DNA from: a virus
Virus record (IMG/VR): IMGVR_UViG_3300031931_000002
Span: 1 to 24,290 of that record
Direction: 5' to 3' (one strand)
DNA length: 24,290 bases
Part shown: in pieces, positions 1,640-23,521 of the stretch
How positions within the stretch are numbered: the first letter of the stretch is position 1
Layout of the letters: every line of letters begins with the position of its first letter
Notes under the pieces: model-generated
Told to the model about the DNA's origin: nothing
The model's input: the letters and a program-made list of their open reading frames with translations, nothing else
Databases searched by the model: none
Position numbers and translations under genes: made by a program

Positions 1640-1834
1640 TTATTCTTCAGTAATAATCTTTTTAATGTTCTTAATATCAATTCTGCTGTAAACGTTATCT
1701 CCAATCGCCATAGCCTGCATGTCAAAACTATTAAGTTTTTCAGCTATTAGATCAGCGTCGTATGTTTCTACTTCGACAATGTCGGTGTCGCCAGAATGAG
1801 TTGATACTTGCAGTTTTATTAATTCGTTTTCCAT
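1640..1834 (-). CDS. Small conserved phage protein, function unknown
   Basis: This 64-residue acidic protein has no membrane segment. The pattern of alternating hydrophobic residues and the ending KNIKKIITEE look like a small alpha/beta fold. The start ATG overlaps the TAA stop of the Tal gene (TAATG) and is preceded by AGGAGG at a good distance, so it is translationally coupled. It lies between tail tip and holin, where many siphoviruses of Bacilli carry one or more tiny genes of unknown role. I do not recognise the family. Confidence 0.75.
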   Translation of the reverse strand: MENELIKLQVSTHSGDTDIVEVETYDADLIAEKLNSFDMQAMAIGDNVYSRIDIKNIKKIITEE

Positions 1835-3723
1835 TAATAATTACCTCCTAACTGAGATTGAATAAATACTCTCAAAATTAAATCAGCTTCGATTCTGGCC
1901 AAGCCATTCGGCAATATTTCCACTTCGTGCCTTCCTCTTGTCACTCTACCATTTGCGCTTTTCGATAGGTAATCAACTAAGTTAATGCGATTACCACTAG
2001 TGCTTGAGTGTGGAACGATGTTACCATCCACTTTAATTTGCACATTATTAGGCAATGTGTTTAGTTCGACAATCTCATGTGCTACATTGTGCGTGTGATC
2101 TGGTAGCTCAATATCATGTGTGTGGTTAGGTGTTGTAAAATCGTGTGTATGGCTCGGAACATTGAAATCGTGTGTGTGGTTAGGTACGTCAAAATCGTGC
2201 GTATGCGCGGGTAAGTCTGTTGTATGATGATGTTGAAAATCAGCAAGATCAATCGTTACACCGTGTTTATGTGGTGAGTCAAAATAAGGAATATCATCGC
2301 CTGTTGTATAAGGGATTAACGTCGTTTCCCAACCGTTAGCTAACCCACTACTTTGCACACTACCACCACCACTTGACGTTGACTTGCTTGTGCCACCACC
2401 GCTAGAAGTCGACTTGCTTGTTCCGCCACCGCTTGACGTTGATGTGCTTGTTCCGCCGCCGCTTGATGTCGATTTGACAGTTGCCCCACCACCCTCAGTA
2501 GCACGTGAGTAAGTCCTGAAATTCTTTGTTCTGAAGGTCAACTCAACTGTGTTGATGTTGACAACATCGTCATCAATATAAAACGGGATTAGCGCAGGTA
2601 TATCATTATCACAATTGTCTTGATAACTAAAGTTCATAATGTTCGTAGCGCCTTGAGAGTACAACTCATTGATTTGTTGTCTACGCTCTAAGTCAGCTTG
2701 AGTTGTTGCTAAATCTTCAACAACATTGCCGATCTCTAAAATGACGTTTCCTGGATCGCCTTTAATGTCTGGCTTACTCACTGACATAATGCGCATATCA
2801 ATTGTTGGATAATCATCTAATTGTAATCGCACAACTTTTCCGAGTTTAAATTTATCAATAGATAAGCCCGTAATTTTTGAAACGTCCGCAGCCGAAACTT
2901 TCCATGTTACGATTGGCTTTTTGAACTTATCAAGTAACGCTTGAGCGCTAGATTTTAATGATTCGACGTCCGTAAAGCGTTGGTCTACCCAAACATATTC
3001 TTTAACCTCTTCGCCTGGTTTTATATCTTCTAAATAGGGCACACCATCGTTGATGGATTCAATCGTTAATTGATTGACCCCTTCCCCGGCGCCAAGCGGA
3101 TAGATACGGTTATATACACTCATCGGATTTTCTTCTATCTCCAATCCAATAAGGTTATAACTTTCTTTTATGCGGCATACAGGCTCGTCATCTGGTCTGA
3201 CTAAGTTAAGTGTCCAGGGATAAGATTGTGTATCAAAGCCCCATAAATATGACTCGTTGAACGGCCTCGGAACACTGAATATAGCTGATAATAGATTTTC
3301 GTTTTCCCAGTTGTAATGAAAATAGCGAGTAAACTCTACACCCCCCTTTTTCCAGTGCGGATGATTTTGTCTTGATAATAGATAATCAATATTTTCGGTT
3401 GTCGTAAATCCAGCGCGCTGATGATACTTAAACAATGACTTGTCTAATAGTGTGGCCAAGACGTGTTCACACTTGAATTGAACTTCTTTTGTTGAATTGT
3501 TTTTGATTGTTAACTTCGGTATGATACGGAACAATCCAATATATTCTTTGTCATCAGTTATTTCAACGTATTTAAGTAGCTCAACTTTTCTAACTTTAGG
3601 ATCGTTTAACGGCAAAGAAAAAGAAGCTTGCCAAATTGCGTTGACTTGCTTCTCGTATCCAACGTTATATGCGTTTTCTAGAATTGCTGTTGTTTCGCGG
3701 TTTAAATTTAATGTGCGTATCAA
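1834..3723 (-). CDS. Tail-associated (Tal) tip protein, prophage endopeptidase-tail type, with HxH needle
   Basis: This is the central tail-tip protein that closes the tail tube below Dit. Residues 1 to about 350 match the layout of Prophage_tail/Tal proteins (gp27-like): an N-terminal beta-rich region, a middle region with SYNLIGLEIEENPMSVYNRIYPLG, and a carboxyl part near VILEIGNV. Residues 408-455 are a flexible linker of four STSSGGGTSK-like repeats. Residues 482-552 are rich in histidine, with seven HxH motifs, five of them HTH in a 9-residue period. HxH motifs in trimeric tail fibres (T4 gp37, phi92 gp138) coordinate iron. I see no obvious wall-hydrolase domain, so the peptidase label is only the family name. 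The start is TTG, chosen because GAGGTG lies 6-7 nt upstream and the N-terminal motif MIRTLNLN follows. Confidence 0.88.
   Translation of the reverse strand: MIRTLNLNRETTAILENAYNVGYEKQVNAIWQASFSLPLNDPKVRKVELLKYVEITDDKEYIGLFRIIPKLTIKNNSTKEVQFKCEHVLATLLDKSLFKYHQRAGFTTTENIDYLLSRQNHPHWKKGGVEFTRYFHYNWENENLLSAIFSVPRPFNESYLWGFDTQSYPWTLNLVRPDDEPVCRIKESYNLIGLEIEENPMSVYNRIYPLGAGEGVNQLTIESINDGVPYLEDIKPGEEVKEYVWVDQRFTDVESLKSSAQALLDKFKKPIVTWKVSAADVSKITGLSIDKFKLGKVVRLQLDDYPTIDMRIMSVSKPDIKGDPGNVILEIGNVVEDLATTQADLERRQQINELYSQGATNIMNFSYQDNCDNDIPALIPFYIDDDVVNINTVELTFRTKNFRTYSRATEGGGATVKSTSSGGGTSTSTSSGGGTSKSTSSGGGTSKSTSSGGGSVQSSGLANGWETTLIPYTTGDDIPYFDSPHKHGVTIDLADFQHHHTTDLPAHTHDFDVPNHTHDFNVPSHTHDFTTPNHTHDIELPDHTHNVAHEIVELNTLPNNVQIKVDGNIVPHSSTSGNRINLVDYLSKSANGRVTRGRHEVEILPNGLARIEADLILRVFIQSQLGGNY
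2089..2271 (-). repeat. 27-bp coding repeat specifying HxH metal-binding needle
   Basis: His-Thr-His codons recur every 27 bp at 2089, 2116, 2143, 2170 and 2197. HHH (2224-2232) and HKH (2263-2271) lie further upstream in the gene. The repeat unit reads HTHDF-x-x-P-x. DNA copies differ at several third positions, so they are diverged rather than newly duplicated. In a trimer each HxH would supply six imidazoles for one metal ion. Confidence 0.8.
2361..2480 (-). repeat. 30-bp coding repeat, Ser/Thr/Gly linker
   Basis: Four units spaced 30 bp apart, marked by GGG codon runs near 2363, 2393, 2422 and 2452, encode STSSGGGTSK-type decapeptides. They separate the Tal body from the His-rich needle. 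Near-identical tandem units in a linker can change number by slippage or recombination. Confidence 0.8.
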
Positions 3724-3749: not shown

Positions 3750-3776
3750 AAATGCGCCCCTAAAAGGAACGCATTT
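3750..3776 (-). terminator. Terminator closing the Wzy unit
   Basis: On the minus strand an 11-bp stem (AAATGCGTTCC with GGGGCGCATTT, two G-T wobbles) with loop TTTTA is followed by AATTTATTT. It lies after the stop of the small Tyr-rich gene and before the Tal ribosome binding site. It therefore separates the Wzy pair from the tail genes. Confidence 0.6.
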
Positions 3777-3789
3777 CCGATAACTTAAT

Positions 3790-4008
3790 TTATATTTGCT
3801 GAACCCTAACAAGCTTGTCTATCCCTTCTATCTTTAATAGATATCTACCGCCATCCCTAAAAATTTGAACCTTTGGTCTATATTTATATCTATACCTATA
3901 ATAATACTCAACTTGTTTCCACTTTTGACCGTTATCCAATTCGAATACTGTTTCTCCATCAAAACCGTTAGACTCATCAACTAATTTTGATTCTTTATAC
4001 AATTCCAT
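3790..4008 (-). CDS. Small Tyr-rich protein in the Wzy unit, function unknown
   Basis: This 72-residue soluble protein contains LDNGQKWKQVEYYYRYRYKYRP and then a short beta-like end (YLLKIEGIDKLVRV). I recognise the pattern 'ELDNGQ.W.Q..YYYRYRY.YRP.V.I...G.YLLKIEG' as that of a widespread uncharacterised bacterial domain, but no function can be given. I start it at the ATG at 4008, because AAGGAGG sits 8 nt upstream. The in-frame TTG at 4041 has no ribosome binding site. It follows the Wzy gene after 92 bp and is closed by a hairpin at 3750-3776, so the two probably form one inserted unit. Confidence 0.7.
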   Translation of the reverse strand: MELYKESKLVDESNGFDGETVFELDNGQKWKQVEYYYRYRYKYRPKVQIFRDGGRYLLKIEGIDKLVRVQQI

Positions 4009-4100
4009 ATTTAACGCCTCCTTATCTACTTTATTCGACAAGGAAGAGTTAAATTCCTGCTTTATTCCATTTTTAGTTACCGCGCAGTTTGGTTCAACTA

Positions 4101-5561
4101 CTAGTTATACCTTTCAATATTTTGCATATTATTTACTGAGTTAATTCTGGAAGGGTTCATTTTCCTAGCTAAAGCAGTATATAAAGCCACCATTATTAAT
4201 GGGATTACTGTATAGTAGCCGAAATTACGCCAAAATGTTATTGTCTCACTTCTAACAAACCAAAGTAAGTTTGGAGCAATTGATAGCCACATAAATAGCT
4301 TCAAGTAGTTTTCGTCTCTGCTTGCTTTTATAATACTGAAGTACATTTTACCAAATATAAAACCAAACATAGGTATTATAAGAAGCCCCCAGTAACCGAA
4401 ATTGTAATATGCTTCAATAATGAAAGAAGAGCCTATTCCACTATTCTGAAAAAGAAACGACTTAAATACTTGGTCGACTCCTCCTTGAGCAGCAGGATGA
4501 ACGTCCCAAAACAGATTAGGTATTAATGTAAGCAAACTATTAATGTAAGTTGCTCCTCCATTAAAAGGAATTGCACTAGGTGAAAATACCATCACTGTAG
4601 TACACGCTATTAAAGTAAAACCCATTTCTCCCAATAAATTAACCGCGAGATTGTTATTAGACATAACAGTTAAAATCTGTTCGAATCCTATGTTAGATAG
4701 AGCCATATTCCTTGTACTAGAGATTAAACTTAGTAAAACTATTCCTGATAGACCAATCCATACAAATTTTAGTAACTGTCTTTTAGTGAATGGTTTAATA
4801 GAGAAATGATAAAGCAAGACAATTGAAATCAGAAATAATACATTTGATCCTCTTTGGCCTGATATAACCATTAATAATGAATAAACAATTGAAAACCCAA
4901 TCCAAAAAGTTCTCCGTTTCGGATTGGCTATATTTCCTAAAATTAGTAACAATAATGAGCTATCAAAAAAACCCGCTACTAACCTTGGGATACCGCCATC
5001 AACCCCAGCACCTTGAACAAAATCACTTTCAAAGATATTCGCATACCCGACAGTAAAAGTTGTAATTAAACTATTTATGAGGAAGTTAATTGCGGGTATA
5101 GCTGATATTAAAAATAGCAACTTCCCAATTGCAACCATCGCCTTCTTATTTACTTTTACCGGATTTCTCACTTGTACTCCTTCTATCGTAAAAGATGCAC
5201 CTACATGGAATAATGCCATAGCCCTCAATAAAAACTTTAGTGTAGTATTAACTTGAGTAATGGTAAACGGAGAGGTGTTAATTGACATTACATTGGTAAC
5301 CTCAATGTTAAAGAGGTATAAAATTGGTTGCCCTAAATAGAAAAAGAATGATAAGGCCAGGAAGATTAAATAAATGTTCATAATATTTTTTGTTGCCTTA
5401 AACCAACTCACAAACATCCAAATATACTGAAAGATTCCGAAAATCGCCACTTGTTTTATATTTTGTTCGTCAGATAACCAATACAGCATAAAAAATATCC
5501 CAGCCATTATTAAATTGGTAAGGACAAACACAGCTTTCTTTTGACTTATTTTAATGCTCAC
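4101..5561 (-). CDS. Wzy-like O-antigen/oligosaccharide repeat-unit polymerase (prophage moron)
   Basis: This 486-residue polytopic membrane protein should join lipid-linked oligosaccharide repeat units into a surface polysaccharide on the outer face of the membrane. About 11-12 hydrophobic segments span the protein (for example 10-28, 38-53, 60-84, 142-166, 192-210, 218-250, 264-281, 383-410, 448-465). Sequence marks of the Wzy/oligosaccharide-repeat polymerase class are the short motif SGQRGSN after a membrane segment and E-A-Y-Y-N-F-G-Y-W-G late in the protein. Long extracellular-type loops lie between them. The start is GTG at 5561, with an AAGG...AGGTG ribosome binding site upstream. It is not a virion gene: it interrupts the tail module between the receptor-binding protein and Tal, and has its own promoter-like region and terminator. 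It may change the host surface glycan. The exact glycan and linkage cannot be read from sequence. A ligase-type relative is a less likely alternative. Confidence 0.85.
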   Translation of the reverse strand: MSIKISQKKAVFVLTNLIMAGIFFMLYWLSDEQNIKQVAIFGIFQYIWMFVSWFKATKNIMNIYLIFLALSFFFYLGQPILYLFNIEVTNVMSINTSPFTITQVNTTLKFLLRAMALFHVGASFTIEGVQVRNPVKVNKKAMVAIGKLLFLISAIPAINFLINSLITTFTVGYANIFESDFVQGAGVDGGIPRLVAGFFDSSLLLLILGNIANPKRRTFWIGFSIVYSLLMVISGQRGSNVLFLISIVLLYHFSIKPFTKRQLLKFVWIGLSGIVLLSLISSTRNMALSNIGFEQILTVMSNNNLAVNLLGEMGFTLIACTTVMVFSPSAIPFNGGATYINSLLTLIPNLFWDVHPAAQGGVDQVFKSFLFQNSGIGSSFIIEAYYNFGYWGLLIIPMFGFIFGKMYFSIIKASRDENYLKLFMWLSIAPNLLWFVRSETITFWRNFGYYTVIPLIMVALYTALARKMNPSRINSVNNMQNIERYN

Positions 5562-5593
5562 TAATATTCAACACCTTATCCTTTTTAGAAGTA

Positions 5594-5644
5594 ATCTTAA
5601 CACACTAAAGGATAAAGTGTAATATTTTTTAGTAACTTTGTTAA
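5594..5644 (-). promoter_or_regulatory. Promoter region for the Wzy unit
   Basis: Two overlapping sigma-A-like candidates lie in the 88-bp gap upstream of the Wzy gene on the minus strand. One is TTACAC (5617-5622), 17 bp, TAAGAT (5594-5599). The other is TTAACA (5639-5644), 17 bp, TACACT (5616-5621). An imperfect inverted repeat with ACACT/AGTGT arms (5602-5620) lies in the spacer of the first and could be an operator. Each hexamer has four or five consensus matches, so the promoter is plausible but unproven. Confidence 0.5.
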
Positions 5645-7680: not shown

Positions 7681-8175
7681 TTAAACCACCCAACTTTCGT
7701 TTTCTAATGTCATGTAAGCGCCAATCGTTTGTCTTACTGCTTCGCCTGCCGTGGTATACGTGATACCGTCATAACCTACTCGTATATCCAAGAGTTCAGC
7801 ATTGTTGGTTACGTCACCAGCGTTAGCAGTTAAGTTGTTTATTCGTGCCTTCTCAACTTCTAAGGCTGTTTGATTCGCCTTTTGTGCCAACTGTGCGGTA
7901 GTCTGTGTCTCTTTTGCATCTAATCTTTCCTTTAAAGTCTGATAAGTTTGACCTTCTGCATCGACCCGCGCTTGTGCTGCTTCAACTGATGAATCTCCGT
8001 TGATCACTACTTGATTAAGTTGTTCTTGAGTACTTGTTGATTGTGATAAAGATTGATTAGCTTTACCTAAAGCTTCATCCGACTTGTTTTCTGCTCGTTC
8101 ACTTGCTTTTATACCCTCATTTAACTTTACTCTACCCTGATTGAGACTATCATCTCTATTAATTAATTCAGTCAT
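7681..8175 (-). CDS. Baseplate/tail-fibre linker protein, coiled coil
   Basis: This 164-residue protein is strongly helical over residues 10-120 (repeated Ala/Glu/Lys/Gln heptad-like pattern). It contains the phage baseplate signature NGDSSVEAAQARVDAEG-x-x-Y-x-T-L-x-x-R-L-D and ends in DIRVGYDGITYTTAGEAVRQ. Such modules are common in upper-baseplate (BppU-like) or fibre-anchor proteins of siphoviruses of Bacilli. Its TAA stop abuts the ATG of the receptor-binding protein with no gap, so the two are co-translated and probably assemble together. The start is ATG with GGGGTG about 5-6 nt upstream. The role is inferred from signature and context. Confidence 0.7.
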   Translation of the reverse strand: MTELINRDDSLNQGRVKLNEGIKASERAENKSDEALGKANQSLSQSTSTQEQLNQVVINGDSSVEAAQARVDAEGQTYQTLKERLDAKETQTTAQLAQKANQTALEVEKARINNLTANAGDVTNNAELLDIRVGYDGITYTTAGEAVRQTIGAYMTLENESWVV

Positions 8176-8186
8176 TACATCACCCC

Positions 8187-8987
8187 TTAAATAAACTTAT
8201 CTCGGAATTTAATTCTTAGATCAATGTCAATATTGGTGCCGGAGACTACAACATCATTATCGCCTGGCATTAAATAAAAATTATTGATTTCTAACATTGT
8301 TTCATTTCCGTTTCTAATGACTAAAAACTTTTCAAAATCAACAGACCATGATTCATTGTTAAAGTTAGGCAAAGAAAAAGAGTGCCCGTTTGCACTCAAT
8401 GTTAGGCTATTTGCCGTTCCGTCAATCTCGATAATTGGTTGTACCGCTAACCCTTCTACGCTGATATTTAATGTTTGTGGACCAGTTATATTTACCGATC
8501 CTCCTGTTGATTCGTGGCCAAGTAAATAATGATATTCAAAGGTAATCGTTTCACTTCCCCAGGTGACTTCGTCAGCATAAACATTTGAGTATTTAAACGG
8601 ATCGCTAGCAGTTAAATATAAACCAAATCTCCTTAAAAAACTCACAGCATTATTCGGCGCAATATAGCCAGATAACTCAACTGTATAGCATTTATCTGGT
8701 TCATAATCGAAAGTTAATTTGAACGGTCTGGGTTTGCCGAATTCATCAAATAATAGAGCGATTAACTTATTTTGTTTTTGTTGAAGATTTATCGGATCGC
8801 CATCAGCCACTCTCAAAGGAATTTGAAAATCTCGCTGTCCGATTTCAGAACCGAAGTTCCAGGCGCCTGGCATTCCGGGTATTTCTAATGTTTTTCTGAT
8901 TATCTTAGGCGTGGCTTCGTGATCGTGATTTAGATAAGCATTAAAACCAAAGTCCTCAAGCCTATATTTGTCATCAATTGTTATCAT
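8187..8987 (-). CDS. Distal tail protein (Dit), Sipho_tail family
   Basis: Dit forms the hexameric ring joining the tail tube to the baseplate. The N-terminal part (1-130) shows the Sipho_tail pattern: DFGFNAYLNHDH, PG-x-x-G-A-W-N-F-G, R-D-F-Q-I-P-L, and the late GLYLTASDPFKY. Residues 135-266 are a beta-rich C-terminal domain with no clear carbohydrate-binding insertion, so this is a short, 'classical'-size Dit (266 residues). The ATG overlaps the TGA of the tape measure gene (ATGA) and has GGGGTG upstream, giving translational coupling. Confidence 0.88.
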   Translation of the reverse strand: MITIDDKYRLEDFGFNAYLNHDHEATPKIIRKTLEIPGMPGAWNFGSEIGQRDFQIPLRVADGDPINLQQKQNKLIALLFDEFGKPRPFKLTFDYEPDKCYTVELSGYIAPNNAVSFLRRFGLYLTASDPFKYSNVYADEVTWGSETITFEYHYLLGHESTGGSVNITGPQTLNISVEGLAVQPIIEIDGTANSLTLSANGHSFSLPNFNNESWSVDFEKFLVIRNGNETMLEINNFYLMPGDNDVVVSGTNIDIDLRIKFRDKFI

Positions 8988-22953: not shown

Positions 22954-23421
22954 TTATTCAATCATGTTTCTTATTCCAACTGGCAATTCTCCCTCAAGAT
23001 ATTCATCAGACAATTCCCTAATGATTATGCCAGATTCATAAGCGCTATCGTATGCTGATTCTGTCTCTCCTAATAATTCATAATTAATTGTATCAAGTAA
23101 ATGCTCTGATAGATCAATTAACTCACTTACAGCATTAGCGCTTGATTCATAATTATCTTGAATATCAATTACTGCTAAATTAATGTCTGTTATTGCTTCG
23201 TTCAATTGATTATTCTTTTGTTCGTTATTAGCGCTTGTCGTAAACGCCAAAGAATACTTTCCTGTTATTTGGCTAAGATACATTTTAACAGCCGTGTCTG
23301 TCATTTCTTCTTTTTTATCAGTTTCAGTTGCGGAACCGTTACTTGTCGATTCAACTTCTCCGCTATCAGAACAACCTACTAACAAAACGGCAGTTAATAA
23401 AACAAATAATAATTTTCTCAT
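22954..23421 (-). CDS. Phage-encoded surface lipoprotein, function unknown
   Basis: This 155-residue protein has a type II signal peptide: MRKLLF, a hydrophobic stretch, and lipobox L-V-G-C with the lipidated Cys at residue 17. A Ser/Thr/Glu-rich spacer (18-42) leads to a helical, acidic domain (45-150) with no recognised family. It should be anchored to the outer face of the membrane. I start it at the ATG at 23421, as GGAGGTG lies 5-7 nt upstream; the in-frame start at 23439 precedes that site. It has its own promoter and terminator between the late regulator and terS. Superinfection-exclusion lipoproteins (Ltp of phage TP-J34) are a known precedent, but no sequence match is claimed. Confidence 0.85.
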   Translation of the reverse strand: MRKLLFVLLTAVLLVGCSDSGEVESTSNGSATETDKKEEMTDTAVKMYLSQITGKYSLAFTTSANNEQKNNQLNEAITDINLAVIDIQDNYESSANAVSELIDLSEHLLDTINYELLGETESAYDSAYESGIIIRELSDEYLEGELPVGIRNMIE

Positions 23422-23521
23422 GCAAACACCTCCTACCACAATATTACATTAACGTACTATTGTTAGCAATACGTTTCGGGTAGAAGGGTTATCGTGTGAC
23501 TGCCTGGCCGTTCCTATCCCC

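Follow-up and report, generated by a model that had tools for sequence, protein, structure and literature searches.

A Wzy-type polymerase gene in a putative cargo slot at the tail tip of a siphophage

The polymerase gene and its neighbours

The window analysed here, 24,290 bases long, is an entire IMG/VR record and carries the late half of a siphophage genome on the minus strand. Its genes follow the order terminase, portal, head, tape measure, Dit, a 164-aa protein, a 676-aa protein, a 486-aa protein, a small ORF, Tal, holin and amidase, the head and packaging genes being assigned from sequence and order only. The features around the 486-aa gene are listed in Table 1. No integrase was found within the 24 kb window, and the relatives of its Tal indicate that the host likely belongs to the family Bacillaceae.

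Table 1. Features between Dit and Tal in the window, in order of transcription.
Feature	Position	Strand	Remarks
Dit (distal tail protein)	8187-8987	-	Other edge of the slot; profile search
164-aa tail protein	7681-8175	-	N-terminal start resembles receptor-binding proteins of relatives
Presumed receptor-binding tail protein, 676 aa	5650-7680	-	C-terminal part BNR/sialidase-like, sub-threshold match
Candidate own promoter, TTAACA-17-TACACT	5644-5616	-	-10 at the left arm of the hairpin; weak
Leader hairpin over the Shine-Dalgarno sequence	5571-5620	-	14-nt arms 5620-5607 and 5584-5571, 93% complementary
Wzy-type polymerase gene, 486 aa	4101-5561	-	PF14296, E 2e-25; GC 0.33
Second hairpin hiding a Shine-Dalgarno sequence, before the small ORF	4009-4054	-	z -5.2; invariant TTGTCGAAT at 4033-4041
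Small co-carried ORF	3790-4041	-	83 codons from TTG 4041; function unassigned by family search
Predicted intrinsic terminator at the end of the cargo unit, ahead of Tal, holin and amidase	3776-3750	-	Folding
Tal (tail-associated protein)	1834-3723	-	Prophage_tail, E 1e-27; survey anchor

The 486-aa ORF starts with a GTG at 5561, preceded 10 nt upstream by the Shine-Dalgarno (SD) sequence AAGGTG, and about nine transmembrane segments were predicted in its product by a hydropathy count. Both motifs named in the original prediction, SGQRGSN and EAYYNFGYWG, are present in the protein. The Wzy-class assignment made there was borne out by a match to nearly the full PF14296 model, in which residues 17-468 were aligned with positions 6-467 of the 468 in the profile at 89.9 bits (curated cut-off 26.6), and by chromosomal homologues in capsule-type loci. 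The match to TIGR04370 (oligosaccharide repeat unit polymerase) reached 33 bits, under the cut-off of 40. The predicted location between a receptor-binding gene and Tal was likewise upheld, Tal being recognised by its Prophage_tail match and the 676-aa neighbour by its sub-threshold BNR/sialidase-like part.

A transporter identity was considered and rejected, Wzy being the sole Pfam family matched by the 486-aa protein.

Searches of 397 and 399 genomes, representing the order and the class of the host of a relative, returned five chromosomal homologues of the polymerase (best identity 33%), and all five lay inside capsule/exopolysaccharide-type (Wzx/Wzy-type) loci. Judged by sequence beginnings, hydropathy and gene order, their neighbours were glycosyltransferase-like, UDP-GlcNAc 2-epimerase-like and other nucleotide-sugar genes, sugar-phosphate transferases and a flippase-like gene with 11-14 transmembrane segments. 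The phage polymerase is solitary: no glycosyltransferases, flippase or other polysaccharide genes were found in the 24 kb window, so that an active enzyme of the Wzx/Wzy pathway would have to use repeat units made by the host. No close phage relative of the polymerase was present in INPHARED or IMG/VR, and no solved structure was matched by the family profile at the sequence level. An AlphaFold2 prediction made from two sequences had a pLDDT of 38, and the alignment of the wider polymerase family was too diverse for scanning.

The 676-aa protein, the receptor-binding candidate, has a distant relative (E 2e-32) in the product of L141:2571-3746, which belongs to one of the surveyed loci described below; that locus also has a slot polymerase (Wzy_C).

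Contents of the gap between receptor-binding gene and Tal

Relatives of Tal were collected from phage records, IMG/VR and GTDB genomes, which gave 142 loci. At 90% Tal identity these fell into 99 clusters, 64 of which have a receptor-binding gene in the stretch from Dit to Tal. The survey thus contains relatives found via Tal, with ORFs called mechanically and transmembrane segments counted by hydropathy only. A survey of this kind had been proposed with the original prediction, and glycan-polymerase genes did recur beside the receptor-binding genes of Tal relatives. Several of these relatives sit in Bacillaceae chromosome contigs, and integrases were present in three of five cargo-bearing phage records. 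One of the loci, L025, belongs to the cultured strain Lederbergia galactosidilytica DSM 15595.

The nearest Tal relative among named phages was Halomonas phage YPHTV-1 (ON854455.1, L002), with a Tal 62-69% identical to that of the window, depending on method. Its slot holds a Wzy_C protein and an OatA-like acyltransferase, which are annotated as O-antigen ligase and OatA in a record that gives no description of the slot. The polymerase family thus differs from that of the window (Wzy_C versus PF14296). YPHTV-1 was recorded from a Gram-negative host; its Tal and neighbouring genes resemble those of Bacillota phages, and the host assignment may be questionable.

Wzy_C proteins (PF04932) were found above the cut-off in the slots of L025, L087, L127 and L141, and below it in L031 and L091. 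EpsG was detected in L019 and a glyco_rpt_poly member (TIGR04370) in L116. Other occupants were acyltransferases (L066, L137), GDSL esterases (L007, L023, L075, L113, L133), a GDPD phosphodiesterase (L032), a TIR protein (L025) and an integrase-like gene (L078). The candidate defence protein PDC-S47 of PADLOC (L085:6935-7705(-), E 2e-32) is encoded on the opposite strand, in the interval that separates Dit from the receptor-binding gene. Directly after Tal were a Wzy_C gene in L093 and acyltransferase genes in L014 and L033, and a second PF14296 gene (E 9e-95) lay just after Tal in L012; a search with this L012 protein returned only L012 itself. The Wzy_C cargo at L141:3771-4996(-) is read as two overlapping ORFs, of 240 and 184 aa, which may reflect a frameshift or sequencing error.

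Among the listed relatives with a Tal 56-72% identical and a receptor-binding gene in the gap, the slot was filled in every one and its contents varied. Eleven small polytopic genes were counted in 175 kb of slot versus none in 494 kb upstream of Dit, where the only polytopic ORFs were of the size of tape measure proteins. In the enterococcal phages of the group Dit abuts Tal and the slot is absent. Judged by gene content, the region separating the receptor-binding gene from Tal is a general cargo slot, of which the polymerase is one occupant, a point absent from the original prediction. The recurrence of differing surface-sugar and defence genes in this one spot suggests a swap-in slot for remodelling of the host coat and exclusion of competitors.

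Terminators, leader hairpins and a candidate promoter

The polymerase had been described as a self-contained unit, and its own terminator, its differing base composition and the opposite-strand cargo of relatives all agree with that description. The hairpin terminator proposed on its far side proved real by folding (z -3.6), none of 200 shuffled sequences being equally stable. Across the survey, from which the cargo genes for the terminator and GC comparisons were compiled by hand, an intrinsic terminator followed 16 of 22 same-strand cargo genes versus 0 of 75 Dit and 1 of 75 Tal genes; where no cargo was recognised, the last gene ahead of Tal had one in 7 of 40 loci. Of the 29 cargo genes in the terminator survey, seven were on the opposite strand. 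The GC content of the window's Tal is 0.40, and cargo genes (polymerase-type, acyltransferase and other polytopic) were below their own Tal in 16 of 16 cases, by a mean of 11 points (p 3e-5). Without a terminator, transcription of the cargo in a lysogen would be expected to reach the lysis genes, and the terminator would therefore guard Tal, holin and amidase.

The original prediction had overlooked the small ORF and both hairpins that sequester ribosome sites. In RNA read through from upstream, the hairpin in the polymerase leader was calculated at -23 kcal/mol (z -2.8) with the SD sequence fully paired, whereas RNA that starts near 5609, where transcription from the candidate promoter is predicted to begin, cannot form the hairpin (z +0.6). 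On this folding model the leader has the look of a device that silences translation of read-through RNA. The device recalls phage T4, where a helix hides the ribosome site of genes e, soc, 49 and I-TevI in read-through RNA and the late promoter of lysis genes lies within the region encoding the 5' strand of the helix (PMC3014915). The T4 device delays late proteins, whereas that of the window would silence lysogen genes in the late operon, and homology is not implied.

A rule-based test of leaders was applied to all slot genes, with every remaining same-strand gene of these loci for comparison; the duplex of the window polymerase had a p of 0.01. Complementarity between leader and ribosome site at p <=0.01 was detected in 8 of 58 slot genes versus 16 of 1134 others (Fisher 8e-6), in 8 of 37 versus 6 of 385 when only leaders of at least 30 nt were counted (3e-6), and in 6 of 55 slot genes with the window's own genes removed (p 3e-4). 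A minority of slot genes thus carry such a hairpin, and the leader hairpins of L074 and L075 were not significant in this test. The sequences of the arms vary between phages and their complementarity is kept. Rfam gave nothing above gathering scores in the region.

The promoter-like region proposed on the other side of the gene did not exceed chance as a signal, with 4 sites found versus 9.4 expected in such AT-rich DNA. Inside the hairpins of slot genes -10-like sites are frequent; these were not counted as evidence because the leaders are AT-rich, and a location of promoters at the hairpins is suggested at most.

As far as the regulatory part goes, the leader hairpins may act as operators in the DNA, or may have arisen by chance in AT-rich leaders, and be no switches of expression, given that inverted repeats can be protein-binding sites and that the p of 0.01 was passed by only those eight slot genes. 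We consider this doubtful, however: the repeats cover the SD sequence specifically, the enrichment over the same-locus genes persists among the longer leaders, and arms that differ between phages have stayed complementary.

The small ORF is likelier to encode 72 aa from the ATG at 4008, a start picked by SD strength, and no family match was obtained for it in profile searches. Its hairpin belongs to a conserved leader element laid out as an anti-SD sequence, TTGTCGAAT, about 20 nt, the SD sequence and the start, which is found mostly before the gene adjoining Tal. Besides the site in the window, the element was detected at L019:9640-9712, L025:9085-9157, L030:9158-9233, L073:9673-9745, L085:12303-12375 and L141:5140-5212. 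Within it TGTCGAAT is invariant and includes TGTCGAA, the core of the Spo0A 0A-box. A related pattern had one match across five host genomes. The element might possibly serve sporulation-linked control or form a structured RNA.

Proposed conversion of the host polysaccharide

The reading we prefer, with a probability of roughly 0.7, is lysogenic conversion of the host polysaccharide by a moron in the slot that is transcribed independently and silent in the late operon. The mechanism may be depicted as follows: in the lysogen the polymerase would be made from its own promoter, and the terminator would stop the cargo transcript from switching on Tal, holin and amidase. The phage Wzy would take lipid-linked repeat units of the host, flipped by the host Wzx, and join them with a linkage or an efficiency unlike that of the host Wzy. 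The altered capsule, exopolysaccharide or wall glycan would be the receptor of the phage and of its competitors, which the lysogen would then no longer adsorb. During virion production the hairpin would hide the ribosome site in late read-through RNA, and the enzyme would hardly be made. The chemistry, the timing of expression and the exclusion of other phages are what we infer.

A solitary polymerase might also act by interference, competing with or poisoning the host Wzy so that the polymer is shortened or abolished and not relinked. In A. baumannii the host Wzy also appears to be suppressed by the converting prophages (PMC13228068). The PF14296 profile and its conserved positions are nevertheless kept over nearly the full length, as expected of an active enzyme, and interference is in our view improbable. 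Still less probable is that the polymerase is expressed as part of the tail operon in the late phase of the lytic cycle, changing the surface of the dying cell so that released virions do not re-adsorb to cell or debris. The gene does lie on the strand of the late operon and beside the receptor-binding gene. Yet its ribosome site is predicted by folding to be hidden in read-through RNA, the unit has a terminator of its own, the same type of gene is on the opposite strand in relatives, and a new glycan would presumably need time to build up. That the gene is passenger DNA, a recently acquired fragment of a capsule locus not yet lost and without benefit to the phage, accords with its low GC and its lack of a close phage relative in INPHARED and IMG/VR but is very improbable given that the frame of 486 codons is intact, that terminator and leader are dedicated, and that all the nearest relatives with a slot have it filled, in many cases with genes of glycan, esterase or defence type.

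Conversion by a phage polymerase, the reading preferred here, is well established for Gram-negative bacteria; in D3 and epsilon15 a phage-borne O-antigen polymerase alters the linkage and blocks adsorption. Those phages differ from the present one in their Gram-negative hosts and in having dedicated inhibitors of the host polymerase, none of which was recognised in the window. In Staphylococcus aureus the prophage gene tarP encodes a glycosyltransferase that decorates teichoic acid. The resemblance is that of a prophage gene which changes a surface glycopolymer of a Gram-positive host; the differences are that its product is a glycosyltransferase rather than a polymerase and that it lies outside this slot. 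By analogy the closest worked example is that of the A. baumannii prophage polymerases wzy1Ph and wzy2Ph, which relink host repeat units into capsules whose structures have been determined (PMC13228068). There, in a temperate phage, a solitary Wzy is likewise reported near a receptor-binding gene, that of a depolymerase; the host is in contrast Gram-negative, and no fixed Dit-Tal slot, terminator or leader-hairpin arrangement was found in the part of that account consulted (PMC13228068). In the open-access literature searched, no report of conversion by a phage polymerase in Gram-positive hosts was found. The principle is known from D3, epsilon15 and Acinetobacter; the setting and the organisation appear to be new.

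A wider generalisation, which we offer tentatively and at a little under even odds, is that temperate phages of Bacillaceae and their relatives share a tail-tip cargo bay that is repeatedly restocked with varying surface-glycan polymerases, acyltransferases, esterases and defence genes. Cargo on the strand of the late operon would be silenced there by a hairpin over its ribosome site, and its only promoter would be located at the hairpin or within it. If this were true, recognition and alteration of the receptor would travel side by side. The recurrent slot shows where receptor-altering and exclusion genes may be sought across a large group of prophages, and because each cargo gene is paired with the adjoining receptor-binding gene, it makes the glycan receptors recognised by Gram-positive phages accessible to testing. 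If confirmed, the leader hairpin would explain how a gene located in the late operon can serve the lysogen and yet neither burden virion production nor risk switching on lysis.

At the other end of the window, a predicted lipoprotein of 161 aa with no family match is encoded at 22954-23439(-), flanked by the small terminase gene and a regulator-like gene. By position only, it is a possible candidate for superinfection exclusion.
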